A stretch of 64,000 bases of DNA from Whalleya microplaca (Eukaryota; Ascomycota; Sordariomycetes; Xylariales; Xylariaceae), in contig MU385749.1 in assembly GCA_022497155.1 (NCBI GenBank), positions 186,001 to 250,000 of the forward strand. The letters are read 5' to 3'. Positions within the stretch are counted from its first letter, which is position 1; every line of letters begins with the position of its first letter. Positions 7,353-48,754 of this stretch are shown here, one piece after another. The notes under the pieces were generated by a model. The model searched no databases. It had not been told where the DNA came from and was given only the letters and a program-made list of their open reading frames with translations. A program made the position numbers and the translations under genes.

Positions 7353-9345
7353 CTACTCTAACCTGCCCAGCTCCCAGAGGTGCTTCTGTTTCCTCAGCAC
7401 CGAAGACCTCGGACCGATGTCCCCGCTGGCCGACAGACGCTGCTCCCTCCGCCGGTCCCTCGACGATCCCGTGGTCGTAGTAGTAGTGGTAGGTTCGCTC
7501 CTTCCCGCAGGCGCGACTACGACGCTAGGCGGCTTCAATATCCCCATCCTGCGCTCCGCATGCCGCACGCGCGCGGCTAGCGATGGGAGCTCGACCACGC
7601 CGCCATCCAGCGCGGGGAACAGCCCGCCCTCGGGCGTCCCGCTCGAGCTCCCGTCGCTGACCGCGATCGCCTTCCCCTTCTCGTCCATCACCGCGACTCT
7701 GCCTTTCCGCACCAGCACCGGGGCGGCGGCGCCGCTAGGTGGTGTGCTCGACGAGTACGCCGACGATGAGGGCGAGAACGTCGAGCGGAAGCCGTCCCAG
7801 TTCTGGCCCGTTGACTTCGTCTCGTCCGTAACCATGAACACGAGCCCCGTCAGCAGGCTTATGAGGATGATGACGGTGACGATGGCGGCGCCGGCGCGGT
7901 CGCCGCTGGATATCGTCCCGTAGTGCCAGCCGACGGGGTCGACGCGCCCGGAGTCCGAACCGCCGGCGCCCGGGTTCCCCGTACTAGTGCCGCCGGTGGC
8001 GTTCGTCACGGGCGGGTCGGCGGCCTGGATCATGTTCGCGAGCACGACCTCCATCGCCGCCATCTGCTGCCCGATGCCGGTGGTGCCGTCCCACTTGCCG
8101 CTGTTGTTGGCCCACTTGAGCCCGCACAGGCGGTGGTTGTCGCCGCCGGTGCACTGGCGGGCGGCGGCGAGCGCCGAGTTCTGGAGCAGGGTCTTGATGC
8201 GGGCGAACGTCCACGGCGCCCACTTCGTCGTCGCCGCCATCCACCGGCTCAGGTACGCCTTGAAGGACTGCTGGTCGACGTCGCACAGGTCGACGGGCTC
8301 GCAGGCCACCTCGATCATGACCCGGTCCGCCGTCGAGTTGCCCAGGAAGAAGATCGCCTCCGTGCTGTTGAGCAGGCCGTCCACGCGCTCGTGCCACGTC
8401 GCCGCGTCGTCGGACCGGTTCTCGTTGTCCGCGTACGCGACCATGGCCGCGGACCCGAGCAGGAAGGCGCCGACGTTGTAGGAGAACTCGTAGGGGGTGA
8501 CGACGGTGCAGTTGTCGCCGGTGTGAGCGCCGTCGAGGATGCGGTACTCGTCGTCGAGGAAGCGCACGCCGACCATCCAATCCCAGGTACTAACGGCCCA
8601 GTCGGCGTAAGTCTGGTTCCCCGTGTAGAGGGCCAGGCGCGCCGCGAGGTTGAAGAAGCAGGCCTGCGAGATCGAGTTCTTGTAGTCGTAGCCGTTGTTC
8701 CACTGGAAGATCTGCCACCGCAGCCCCCCGTTGCACTCGCGCCGGTCCCAGCGCGCCGCCTGCGTATTGAATACGGCCTGCGCCAGCGCCAGCCACTGCG
8801 GCGCGTCCGCCGGCGGGTTCGGGAAGTTGTACTCCGCCGCCGTCATCACCGCCATGCCCCAGAAGCCTTGATCGTCGTTACCTTCCGTCAAGGTCTGGTT
8901 TGGCGGCATGTAGTCGTTGTCCGGGCCGACCTGGTGCAGGAGTCCCCGTATGGTGAGGTTGTTGTACTGGCTGTCGCCCGTGTAATACCAGTAGTCAATC
9001 AATGCGCCTAGAAAGGCGCCGCCTTCCCACCCTGTCGAGGTGAATCAATGGGGAGGGTTTCTCATAGTGAGGCGCGGGGACTCACAGTAATACGGGTCGG
9101 GCAGAAGACCCGGTACGTGCCCCGGTTGGTCACCGGTATAAAAAGACACCAAGTCTTCTGCCATCTGTTTTGATATATCTTTGATAGAATCTAGAGAGAC
9201 GATTAATATTAATCAACACTCAAAATATAAAATAACCCATTGACTCACCTGTTGATTGGACGTCTAGATCGTACGTCCTGACCAGCCGGCTAGCGATCAG
9301 CAACGAGGCTGTGGTCAATACAGCATTTCGCCATGAGTGCCACAT
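7353..9345 (-). CDS. GH76 alpha-1,6-mannosidase, DCW1/DFG5 type
   Basis: Three exons: 9345-9249, 9190-9086 and 9031-7353, with introns of 58 and 54 nt (both GTGAGT donors). The joined protein has 626 residues. The first exon encodes a signal peptide (RNAVLTTASLLIASRLV). The enzyme domain follows, with the family hallmark PYYWWEGGAFLGALIDYWYY across the exon 2/3 junction and the catalytic Asp pair in GNDDQGFWGMAV. Dcw1/Dfg5 proteins are thought to transfer GPI-anchored mannoproteins to wall glucan, acting at the outer face of the plasma membrane. After a Thr/Gly-rich linker there is a hydrophobic helix (AAIVTVIILISLLTGLVFMV) and a long basic and Ser-rich tail, so this member looks transmembrane rather than GPI-anchored. 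The family call is firm; the substrate is inferred from family knowledge. Confidence 0.93.
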
Positions 9346-25074: not shown

Positions 25075-26512
25075 AAGGAGGTAGGCTGTAGGGTTGTCTT
25101 TGCATCTTCGGCGTCCGGTTGCGGATTTATTTCATCAGGGGTATAGCAGAAAAGGGGCATTTGATAAGGTATACAATGAGATGATGGTCATGGAAAATAA
25201 GAAACGTTTCATTCGCATATACCAAGGATAGAGAAGTTATTTGTTTTCCCTCGTCTCTTGATATATGACCTTTACAGTTGTTGTGTTGATACAGGGAACC
25301 TTGAAAGCTATGTTTCTGAGCCGTACCTAGGGCAACACAGTGAAGGTATCTGTCACGATTGGCAAGCAAGTATCTCATGGATTTCATATTCTACTGAGAT
25401 TTGTGTGGTCACTCAAGAGAGATTCTCGGATGGCAAATGGCTGCCTGTGCTTTCAATTGTCCAGTGAGTCCACTACGCGTTCTTGTCTGTAACGCCATGC
25501 TTATAGCATTATGGTATCGCGAAAGAGCCTACTGCTGAATTACGTTCGTATATTTATGCCTCTCCTTTAGATATCCCCTAAATGCCCAGGAGTCAGAAAC
25601 AGCCTCAAGCAAGAGAACGTATGGCGAAGACGTGGACGTGGTCACTGTGATATTCTTGAAAAGTACGGTCACTTAGTACTATTACCCAAGGCTCAACCAC
25701 GGACAGTAACGTGAGAGTCTTCCCTTGTATTAGTGAAAGGCTTCATGTAAATTTGAAATATAGCTTCATATAGATAACGATATGCAAATTGTCCTACCTT
25801 GAAGAATTCACGTTGTCGTCTCAGCCTGGGACCTGACAAGTACGTAAGCACACATATATTCTGTTTTCGTATGTCTCAGACACAGAGCAATGTTGGAACT
25901 AATTCACTCCACCTTCTGGATTCCTTCCCGGAGCTGCAAAGCAACATTTGGCGCTGTAGCTGTGCAGCTTGATGAGACTTCACGATAATGAGTCCTGCTC
26001 ACTCAAGCAGTCATCAGACAACAGCCTCAGCATGAGAGCAACTATTCCAACGCTACCGTCATCTGTTCAGACACGAACGACCAATCTGCATGTTCTGCAT
26101 GGCGACGCATAACAGCGACGAGCAGACTGCCCTCTCCACTACAGATTCTTCCTCGCATACCAACTCATCATACAGCGTTCAGCCATGAATGTCAACGTTC
26201 CAACTCAGAAGCGACTTAGGTGCACCGCTGAACTGACGCTAGGATATAACCAACGACCTTATCAAAGAGACATCATCTGCCAAGACTAACTAGATGCAAG
26301 CAACCCATTAAGGGTATCTCGAAACATTGAAGCATACCGCCTTCACAAAACATATCATCCGTACATAACTCCCCACAGCGGGACCTAATATTGCTTCAAG
26401 GAGCCACTATAAGTGGCACGACCAGCCCACAGCCATGGAAACAGCTTTGTTTAGTATATATGCTAAAATGAAAAGTCCAGTTGCCAACCAATCACATGAT
26501 AATCGCAATCAT
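25075..26512. other. Intergenic spacer
   Basis: About 1.4 kb with no gene I can support. The last 60 bases before the tRNA are AT-rich. Short frames only. Confidence 0.5.
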
Positions 26513-26655
26513 GGCCGGGTGGTCTAGTGGTAGTAAGTTGCTTCGTGCCTAATTCTGTCCCTTCACGATCCTAACATCTCTACCAGTGATTCTCGCTTAG
26601 GGCACACCCTATGCTACAATGCGAGAGGCCCCGGGTTCAAATCCCGGCTCGGCCC
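26513..26655 (+). tRNA. tRNA-Pro(AGG) with a 17-nt intron and a 54-nt intron-like insert in the D arm
   Basis: Acceptor strand GGCCGGG (26513-26519) pairs with CTCGGCC (26648-26654), one G-T pair; discriminator C at 26655 as in eukaryotic tRNA-Pro. The A box (TGGTCTAGTGG, 26520-26530) and B box (GGTTCAAATCC) are intact. The T arm is CCGGG-TTCAAAT-CCCGG. The anticodon loop TTAGGG(T) gives anticodon AGG at 26599-26601, so it decodes CCU and, as inosine, CCC. A canonical intron, 26603-26619, follows position 37 and contains CCCTA complementary to the anticodon loop, as the tRNA endonuclease expects. A second insert, 26533-26586, interrupts the D arm between positions 21 and 22; it starts GTAAGT, has CTAAC at 26571-26575 and ends CCAG. 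Without both inserts the RNA is a normal tRNA-Pro. A tRNA pseudogene is possible, but all pairings and promoters are kept. Confidence 0.95.
26533..26586 (+). other. Spliceosomal-type intron within the tRNA-Pro gene
   Basis: 54 nt with GTAAGT at its 5' end, CTAAC eleven bases before the terminal AG, and a pyrimidine-rich stretch before the AG. These are the same signals and length as the mRNA introns in neighbouring genes. Only the GT-AG boundaries restore the standard tRNA-Pro sequence GGTATGATTCTCGC. Whether the spliceosome or another nuclease removes it cannot be told from sequence. Confidence 0.85.
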
Positions 26656-26659
26656 TGTC

Positions 26660-26665
26660 TTTTTT
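26660..26665 (+). terminator. RNA polymerase III terminator of tRNA-Pro
   Basis: Run of six T residues five bases after the discriminator base, with a second T run shortly after. Confidence 0.85.
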
Positions 26666-36136: not shown

Positions 36137-39100
36137 ATGTTTAACATCAGCAGCTTCGTGCAGAAGGCTCAATCAGCCGCCCAGCAGCTGATTGATCCCA
36201 TGCAGGGGCTGAACTTGACCAACTCTGACAGAAACCCCTCGAAGTCTTCGCTATTTCAGAACCAGTTCCGACTTCCTGGCTCCCAGACGCCTTTGTACGA
36301 GATCCCCGCCGAGCTCACCATACCGCCCTCCAATGTCACCCAGGGGGACAAAGAACGTGATCGAGGCTGGCACTATGCAGGGAAACTCCATCTATCCGAG
36401 GCTTACATCTGCTTCTCAACCACCCCGACCAGCTTCGTCCATACTGCCACAACATCCACCTCCTCTGCGTTTACCGGTCAAACACACGGCGGGGGTCCTA
36501 GTGGGAATGGCTTCACTTTCCCCCTGTGTGCTATCAGACGGGTTGAACGCCTCAATAGTCCGAACTTCCAGGTAACTGAGGCCCAAGTTGTCTAGGATGA
36601 ATGTCAACACGAGCTGACTCCGAGATTTCTAGTTTGCTCTCGCTATTACAACCTGGAATGGAATCACGCAAGAAATGGCCAAGGACAAAGATGCGCAAAA
36701 AGACAAGAAAGACTTTAAAGAACAGCGGATCACGATACAGCTGGCTGGAAGCCGTCAAGCATGCGAGAGGTTTTGCGATGGCCTCAAGAAAGGTTTGAGG
36801 AACGCCGTCGGCAACGTTGGGAAACTTAAGAAGGTTGTGGGAGAATGCTACTCGGAATACCTGCTCCGGCCCGACGATAAGAAGAATATCAGTCCGCCCG
36901 ATGCGGGTTTGGGTATGATATTTAGGTACCCTGGCGATCCGAAGAAGCTGAGAGACCGAGCAAAGATGAGATTATGGGGCGAATACCTCCGCGACAATGG
37001 CCGTAACGCAACCCTGATTCGTCAGCCCACTTTTCACAAGCTAATCAGAGTCGGTCTCCCAAACCGACTTCGTGGGGAGATATGGGAGCTGACTTCTGGA
37101 TCTTTATATCTACGACTTGAAAACCCAACACTGTACCATGACACCCTGGCTAAGTTCGACGGCAAGGAATCGCTTGCCATCGACGAGATAGAAAAGGACC
37201 TGAACCGAAGCCTTCCCGAATACCCTGGTTTCCAGAGCGAGGATGGCATCAGCCGGTTGCGCCAGGTTCTTACAGCGTATAGCTGGGTGAATCCTGACGT
37301 CGGCTATTGCCAGGCGATGAATATAGTAGTCGCCGCCTTGCTGATATATATGTCCGAGGCCCAGGCATTTTTCCTGCTTTCGGCCTTGTGCGATAGGCTC
37401 GTCCCTGGCTATTACTCCTCTACCATGTATGGAACCCTCTTGGATCAGAAGGTGTTCGAATCCCTCGTGGAGAAGACGATGCCGATCCTGTGGGAACACC
37501 TTGTCAAGAGTGATGTACAACTATCTGTGGTTTCTCTTCCGTGGTTTCTGTCTCTGTATATCAACTCCATGCCTCTGGTCTTTGCATTCAGGGTCCTGGA
37601 TGTCTTTTTTGTTGAAGGGCCCAAAGTTCTCTTCCAAGTTGGGCTGGCCATTCTAAGGATCAATGGTGAGGATTTACTAGACGCCACAGACGACGGCGCG
37701 TTTATATCCGTTCTCAAATCATATTTCACACGTCTCGATGAATCCGCACACCCGAAATCGGAGAACCCCAAATTGAGAGCCATCAACCGGTTCCAAGAAC
37801 TTATGGTGGTCGCTTTCAAAGAGTTCTCGGCCATCACTCACAGCACAATCCAAGATTTGCGATTAAAGAACAAGGATGCGGTTCTCAATAACATTGAGAA
37901 TTTCGCTAAGCGGACTGCTATCCGAAATCTTGGGCCTGACAGCAAGATACTCAGCCCCGATGAGCTAGGGTCTCTTTATGACAGGTTCTATGGTGTGTTA
38001 TATGAACGGCAGCAGCGGGATCACATAATACAAGAAGAGCAACTGCGCCGAGCTAGAGCTAGTAAGACTAGGATCGCCGACGCGTACCCGGAACACCATG
38101 ACCATAACGTGGAGAAGGGTCGCGTTGGTCTTGGTCCCAGCACCAGTGTGATGGATTATGATGCATTTCGGGAGTTCTTAGCGAGTATATCTAAGTGGGC
38201 CATTTCGGATACTCAACCTTCATCCCGACGCGACCAGTCCTCAGAGAAGGACCGTAACAACTCGTATTTTGGCAGTTTCAGACGTTCTGACGCTAGCCTG
38301 CTCTCACCATGGGGTGGCGGCCCTGAGCCAGCTGACCATGAGTTTATGCAGAGATTATTCCGAAGGTGGGATGTGGATGGCAATTCGACGTTGACGTTAC
38401 AGAATGTCGTGACCGGACTGGCACACATTAAGGGCAAGCGTGATATCATGGGTACAATCACCTATTTCTTCGAACTATACGACGATGACGGCGATGGGAA
38501 GGTTGACCGCGAAGGTATTCTGCGAATATCCGAAGCGCTCCTGTTCCTTTCGCGTCGCGGGTTGGAAGGATCACTAAGCAATTCTAATTCAACTACAACG
38601 CTCAATGGGCTAGGAGATTCTGGCCCGTTGAGCCCGCCTATCGGCGGCACCGTGAATGAGCGTTTCTTAGGAAGCGTGAGTGCATTTATTAGACGCTGTT
38701 TTGAATATGCGGATCCAGACCATCCAAGCAATCAACATGGCAACTTTGACACCACCCCGAGATCAAGAGTCAAAACGAATGAACCGGTAGATAACAGCGC
38801 ATTCGCTATCGGCGACGAGGAAGACGATGAAGAGGACCTACTGGCCTTTGAAGGCCCCGCAGCCAGTCCGAGGTCTACAAAGGCAAAGCCGGACCTGGGC
38901 TCAATTCCTCAGGCGATGGGCGGACCAGATAATGGAAACGACTCAAGGCGCACTGTGTCCAGAGCACAGTCTGAGAAAGCCAATGCGGCTCTAGATCCCT
39001 CAAATCCCTTGCATATGACATTGCCTACCTTCCGGATGGTGGTGCTTGCAGATGAGTTACTAGAACAATTCTTCGAATCCTCATTTCCCACATCGTTGCA

Positions 39101-48629: not shown

Positions 48630-48635
48630 AAAAAA
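48630..48635 (-). terminator. RNA polymerase III terminator of the 5S gene
   Basis: On the minus strand a run of T residues immediately follows the 3' GTATGT of the 5S rRNA. Confidence 0.8.
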
Positions 48636-48754
48636 ACATACAACACCGGGGATTCGCTGGTCGTCACCGACCCAACTACTAATCCGGCGGTACCCAGCTT
48701 ATCTAGGACAGAGCGGACGGGATGCCGAGTTTTCTAGGTCCTATGGTCGTATGT
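48636..48754 (-). rRNA. Dispersed 5S rRNA gene
   Basis: Reading from 48754 downward the sequence starts ACATACGACCATA and ends CCCCGGTGTTGTATGT, so the terminal helix ACATAC/GTATGT forms. The internal control region (GGATTAGTAGTTGGGTCGGTGACGACC region) and the AGCGAATCCCC segment match the conserved filamentous-fungal 5S pattern I know from Neurospora. Length is 119 nt. The helix II/III part (GACCTAG...CTGGGTACC) differs from the Neurospora alpha type but can still pair with G-T pairs, so this may be a variant isotype or an early pseudogene. It stands alone, as expected where 5S genes are dispersed rather than in the rDNA array. Confidence 0.93.

Follow-up and report, generated by a model that had tools for sequence, protein, structure and literature searches.

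Probable spliceosomal introns in at least five tRNA genes of Whalleya microplaca, including both tRNA-Cys genes found

A tRNA-Pro(AGG) gene of the fungus Whalleya microplaca (Xylariales) carries a 54-nt insert that is very probably a U2-type spliceosomal intron in a working Pol III gene, and the tRNA genes of this species contain at least five inserts of this kind, this one included. Nuclear tRNA introns are usually assigned to the tRNA endonuclease, and spliceosomal introns to Pol II transcripts. We also consider it probable that all tRNA-Cys of this fungus, and perhaps its tRNA-Arg(CCT), would be made only by way of the spliceosome first and then the tRNA endonuclease and ligase, mRNA-type introns having been taken into tRNA genes repeatedly. 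Both readings are drawn from the genome sequence.

The window analysed here is a stretch of 64,000 nucleotides (C40:186001-250000) of the Whalleya microplaca assembly, which comprises 48.1 Mb in 114 contigs. On its forward strand, exon 1 of the tRNA-Pro(AGG) gene (positions 1-21, at 26513..26532) is followed by the insert between positions 21 and 22 (26533..26586), which we read as a spliceosomal intron, by exon 2 (positions 22-37 with the anticodon AGG, at 26587..26602), by a 17-nt intron of the tRNA endonuclease type at the canonical site after position 37 (26603..26619) and by exon 3 (positions 38-73, at 26620..26655). The insert opens with a predicted 5′ splice site GTAAGT (26533..26538), holds a branch-site-like CTAAC (26571..26575) 11 nt ahead of its end and closes with CCAG, in which the AG (26585..26586, preceded by C) is the predicted 3′ splice site. 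The initial annotation had described a complete tRNA with just these signals, and the sequence is as described. It had also reported intact internal promoters with a terminator, and both boxes are indeed found in the DNA, the A box TGGTCTAGTGG at 26520..26530 and the B box GGTTCAAATCC at 26634..26644, with a T6 run resembling a Pol III terminator at 26660..26665. The second intron is likewise present where it had been placed, and its CCCTA is complementary to the anticodon region. Elsewhere in the window a 5S rRNA gene lies at 48635-48754 on the reverse strand; it gives a full-length match to RF00001 (87.4 bits) and is apparently without interruption.

That only excision from GT to AG restores the tRNA is borne out in two ways. 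A single placement of the insert yields the spliced sequence, and it is the GT..AG placement; ARAGORN, allowing introns of up to 60 nt, finds no tRNA in the unspliced letters and reads the spliced ones as tRNA-Pro(AGG) containing a 17-nt intron. With bacterial settings, ARAGORN calls no tRNA in the whole window. The insert had further been said to share its signals with nearby mRNA introns. This stands in kind, on a small sample of three introns, for which two annotated Whalleya proteins gave the exact borders: two in a GH76 gene on the reverse strand (54 nt, 9032..9085; 58 nt, 9191..9248) and one in a TBC/RabGAP gene on the forward strand (61 nt, 36572..36632). These begin with GTGAGT, GTGAGT and GTAACT, and the tRNA-gene inserts, at 54-64 nt, are of the same length class as these three local introns of 54-61 nt. 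It does not stand for CTAAC, which occurs in none of the three; their branch-like motifs are TTGAT, TTAAT and CTGAC, ending 12, 11 and 14 nt before the intron end, and are less perfect than those of the tRNA-gene inserts.

The claim that a spliceosomal-type intron sits beside an endonuclease intron gains support from four more tRNA genes with what appears to be the same kind of insert. A tRNA-Lys(CTT) gene at C41:306943-307077, matched by the Rfam tRNA model, has a 62-nt insert (GTAAGT...TACTAAC...GAAG) at 52/53. Two tRNA-Cys(GCA) genes, called Cys1 and Cys2 below (C11 near 484 kb and C15 near 521 kb), have inserts of 57 and 64 nt, both at 24/25, and a tRNA-Arg(CCT) gene (C23 near 531 kb) has a 59-nt insert at 18/19 in addition to an anticodon-loop intron. 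The genome of Whalleya microplaca thus holds at least five tRNA genes with GT-AG inserts, at four sites (18/19, 21/22, 24/25 and 52/53), and four of the five carry an anticodon-loop intron as well.

These genes are easily overlooked. The Rfam tRNA model, run against the genome, has 61 matches, best candidates only, among which the window gene, both Cys genes and the Arg(CCT) gene are all missing. The Cys and Arg genes were exposed by genome pattern searches for a B box followed by a T-run. Of the 364, 135, 104 and 161 matches of four pattern searches, 100 each were considered, and five interrupted genes is therefore a lower bound. From the search with 364 matches, 30 of the 100 listed were taken as loci; from that with 135, whose listed matches reach contig C54 and often fall in the same place, 30 matches and 20 further places were examined. 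The search with 104 matches contributed 10 places chosen by eye, nine of them inspected and the tenth (L160) scanned with ARAGORN only, and that with 161, listed as far as contig C34, another 11 chosen by eye. Genes for tRNA-Gly(GCC), Val(CAC), Trp, Asn and Phe, absent from the Rfam list, turned out to be ordinary, with no insert in the D or T arm. A BLAST search with a fungal tRNA-Asn query found no match, yet two Asn genes exist in the genome.

Once spliced, the Pro, Lys and Cys2 sequences receive the expected isotype from ARAGORN. It calls spliced Cys1 an Ala and spliced Arg a Ser, placing the second intron otherwise; on inspection these calls were overruled by the position-37 rule, by which the Arg anticodon CCT was also assigned. 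The same rule, again by inspection, overruled the ARAGORN isotypes of Phe (given as Asn) and of one Trp (given as Arg).

The searches also brought up other tRNA-like elements, which we record here for their own sake. One locus on C1 near 1563 kb (L024, 1490-1675, reverse strand) has all stems paired and matches RF00005 with 40.3 bits; 120 nt replace its anticodon loop, U33 is absent by inspection, and no GT-AG/branch signature was found in it. Three related tRNA-like genes (L151 and L152 on C4 near 1314.8 and 1315.3 kb, and L161 on C32 near 479.4 kb) have good acceptor and D arms and an unclear anticodon region, and L152 matches RF00005 with 33.7 bits. A family of short elements (L110, L131, L134, L135, L136 and L022) shares an upstream ATAACCT..., a start resembling GGCCGGGTTGG, a B-box-like GTTCGATTCC and a T-run; it may be a Pol III repeat or else a small RNA not yet named, and L022, L110, L131, L134 and L136 have no Rfam match at E 0.1. 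In three tRNA-Ala(AGC) loci (L072 on C5, L073 and L074 on C25), a second T-arm-like hairpin (GAGGTTCAA..CCTC) lies directly 3′ of the gene, followed by a TACCA-like end and a T-run. Their flanks are otherwise unlike, and an overlapping or dimeric tRNA arrangement is possible. Dispersed repeats with GGTTCGATTCCTRACAGCG (e.g. L013, L023, L036 and L037), perhaps tRNA-derived SINEs, crowd the B-box searches, and a very AT-rich tRNA-like match on a nuclear contig (L057, C48:408742-408814, 36.8 bits) is perhaps of mitochondrial origin.

The splice signals recur throughout the interrupted genes. All five inserts start with GT, have G at +5 and end in AG; this GT-AG reading is the unique placement in Pro and one of 3-4 equivalent placements in Lys, Cys1, Cys2 and Arg. 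Each also contains YTAAC (CTAAC in four, TTAAC in one), ending 11, 12, 10, 10 and 11 nt before the insert end in Pro, Lys, Cys1, Cys2 and Arg, where shuffling would put it in 3.1, 3.1, 2.5, 1.8 and 0.3 percent of cases, in the same order. As a control, 46 canonical-site introns of 10-45 nt were drawn from 75 distinct ARAGORN calls: one of the 46 allows a GT..AG placement within 4 nt, and another contains YTAAC somewhere in its length, although these introns are shorter than the inserts and so offer less room for a chance motif. The five inserts match a combined signature from first base through last; it was written after the five were known. Shuffled sequence contains it 11.5 times per 128 kb of strand, or roughly once every 11,000 positions, and the window has 10 occurrences.

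Fusarium introns offer a further yardstick; 91 percent of them have the branch site CTRAY, and about 4 percent have TTRAY (PMC5677156). Scored with the Fusarium matrix from the same source, the 5′ splice sites of Pro and Lys are ideal or high, that of Cys1 is fair, and those of Cys2 (GTTAGC) and Arg (GTGGGT) are weak; on this matrix, 13 and 12 percent of the GTs in the window score equally well as the Cys2 and Arg sites. The Lys insert ends in GAAG, a minority type of 3′ site in Fusarium, where RAG followed by a purine makes up 3.5 percent (PMC5677156).

The A box and the B-box core are intact in the DNA of all five genes, in two of them with the help of the insert itself. The Arg insert precedes the last base of the A box and the Lys insert lies just inside the B box; in each, the terminal G of the insert completes the box, replacing the displaced base, so that the internal promoter reads correctly. 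After removal of the insert, A box, B box and cloverleaf are present, as would be expected of a functional Pol III tRNA gene. Upstream of the tRNA-Pro(AGG) gene, at a distance of 58 nt, a TATA-like stretch (26455..26461, forward strand) is weak evidence; Pro alone among the five has such an element, compared with 32 of 82 upstream regions, a set that includes copies of some of the five. For Arg the comparison covered only 45 nt. These elements were set aside as uninformative.

Do the interrupted genes still work? It may be that an insert hit a spare tRNA gene whose RNA is never matured, so that some or all of these genes are dead. Short D- and T-arm insertions in eukaryotes are reported mostly from one of many synonymous genes and have been taken as pseudogenes (PMC4090602), and uninterrupted counterparts do exist here. 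The window gene, for which the initial annotation asked whether it is the only tRNA-Pro(AGG), has an uninterrupted companion on C1 near 494 kb; the Pro(TGG) and Pro(CGG) genes also lack the insert, and Lys(CTT) has three uninterrupted copies. Given these copies, the interrupted Pro and Lys genes could be unused. Against their being dead, the splice signals of the interrupted genes are complete, and the Pro and Lys exons show compensated stem changes in place of decay. Between the two mature Pro(AGG) sequences there are 5 differences in 72 positions, every one of them in the acceptor stem, and the pairs 3:70 and 5:68 are changed on both sides, differences that fit two apparently working tRNA genes rather than a gene and a wreck. 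The interrupted Lys differs from each of two intact Lys versions by one compensated acceptor pair. Many intact copies together with decay had been named as what would speak against an intron in a working gene; of this, only a small part is seen, namely one intact Pro(AGG) copy, its stem changes being compensated and the exons free of decay.

The strongest argument against dead genes comes from tRNA-Cys, of which both genes found are interrupted and cannot both be dead; on the whole we regard such a loss of function as unlikely. An exact pattern for the two halves of the Cys anticodon arm, separated by 4-34 nt, has two matches in the whole genome, and these are the two interrupted genes. The best candidates of the Rfam search include no Cys gene. 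BLAST with one mature Cys sequence recovered no more than the 3′ half of the gene it came from, and not the second Cys gene, so it is unable to show absence. Within the reach of these searches and on their letters, both Cys genes need the insert removed, and the route through spliceosome and then endonuclease would thus be obligatory for tRNA-Cys. Of the 72 positions of the mature Cys sequences 11 are different, and one acceptor pair and two pairs of the T stem have both partners changed; Cys1 has, by inspection, one A-C mismatch in the anticodon stem. For Arg(CCT), no uninterrupted gene was noticed among the loci that these general searches brought up.

A different objection is that the tRNA endonuclease cuts the inserts out at bulge-helix-bulge sites, which would make them non-canonical tRNA introns with a coincidental GT-AG look. 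The endonuclease is needed in any case for the 17-nt intron of the window gene, and tRNA introns in the D and T arms exist in archaea, in Cyanidioschyzon merolae and in nucleomorphs (PMC4090602). This explanation gives no reason for GT, G at +5, YTAAC and AG in all five inserts, each of which lies outside the endonuclease position 37/38 (18/19, 21/22, 24/25 twice and 52/53), and we hold it to be very unlikely. Folding leaves it undecided, as the positive control failed: the bulge-helix-bulge scores of the inserts are reached by 19 to 93 percent of shuffles, and only 4 of 33 canonical introns come out at or below 10 percent. That the inserts are shrunken group I introns is scarcely credible. 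Group I introns follow an upstream exon that ends in U, and the five inserts here are preceded by A, G, G, G and G; nor would a group I intron explain the GT-AG and branch signals. Similarity in length is what speaks for it, group I introns of 56-81 nt being reported from fungal rRNA genes (PMC3160393).

If the inserts are spliceosomal introns, then Pol III would transcribe the interrupted tRNA gene, the nuclear spliceosome would excise the GT-AG intron from the pre-tRNA, and the tRNA body could then fold normally. The tRNA endonuclease would next remove the anticodon-loop intron, with ligation after. We put the endonuclease step second because its subunit Sen54 is reported to contact the D arm (PMC4090602), the arm that is interrupted by the insert in four of the five genes.

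Where the inserts came from can be approached by looking for their copies. No second copy of the Lys insert was found in the whole genome, and the Pro, Cys1, Cys2 and Arg inserts, compared with 328 kb (the window and the loci) and with one another, gave short chance matches only. The near-identical copies that mark introner elements are therefore not seen for Lys genome-wide or for the other four against 328 kb, and there is no sign in these sequences of a recently mobile element. The two Cys inserts have their site and splice signals in common and are otherwise unlike, their longest BLAST match being 6 letters and out of register, as an old intron with its signals kept would look.

Spliceosomal introns in genes other than mRNA genes are known in kind. 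The fission yeast U6 snRNA gene is likewise a Pol III transcript with an mRNA-type intron, thought to have arisen by reverse splicing close to the U6 catalytic bases (PMC10484740). Unlike U6, the Whalleya hosts are tRNAs, which have no part in splicing, and they number at least five genes with four insertion sites and a second intron type in four of the five. In lichen fungi, the nuclear rDNA also has short ectopic spliceosomal introns in a structural RNA that is not a Pol II transcript, and one of these introns (57 bp) is excised by yeast spliceosomes too when put into yeast rDNA (PMC8527467). That rRNA is made by Pol I, and its precursor has no endonuclease intron alongside. The tRNA introns of nucleomorphs, C. 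merolae and archaea resemble the inserts as D- and T-arm extras, in many cases accompanied by a canonical intron (PMC4090602, PMC3978253). In archaea and C. merolae, however, they are of the bulge-helix-bulge type, with a GT-AG/branch signature unmentioned in the portions of these papers used here, and in the Guillardia nucleomorph they are 3-24 nt long, by a mechanism stated there as unknown (PMC4090602, PMC3978253). From the canonical nuclear tRNA intron at 37/38, of which the window gene carries one of 17 nt, the 54-nt insert differs in site, length class and signals. No described case of spliceosomal introns in nuclear tRNA genes surfaced in searches of the open-licence PMC literature, and the same holds for their presence in several such genes and in both genes found of one essential family.

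One practical warning is that tRNA finders can miss essential tRNAs, as the best candidates from Rfam did with the window gene, two Cys genes and Arg(CCT). If our reading is true, the spliceosome can process a tiny Pol III tRNA precursor, and does so in seemingly indispensable genes. The order and place of tRNA processing would become testable, and the inserts would offer insight into how introns are gained and kept by genes without coding constraint. For Whalleya microplaca itself, reading cysteine codons would directly require the spliceosome, and any condition slowing splicing would limit these tRNAs as well.
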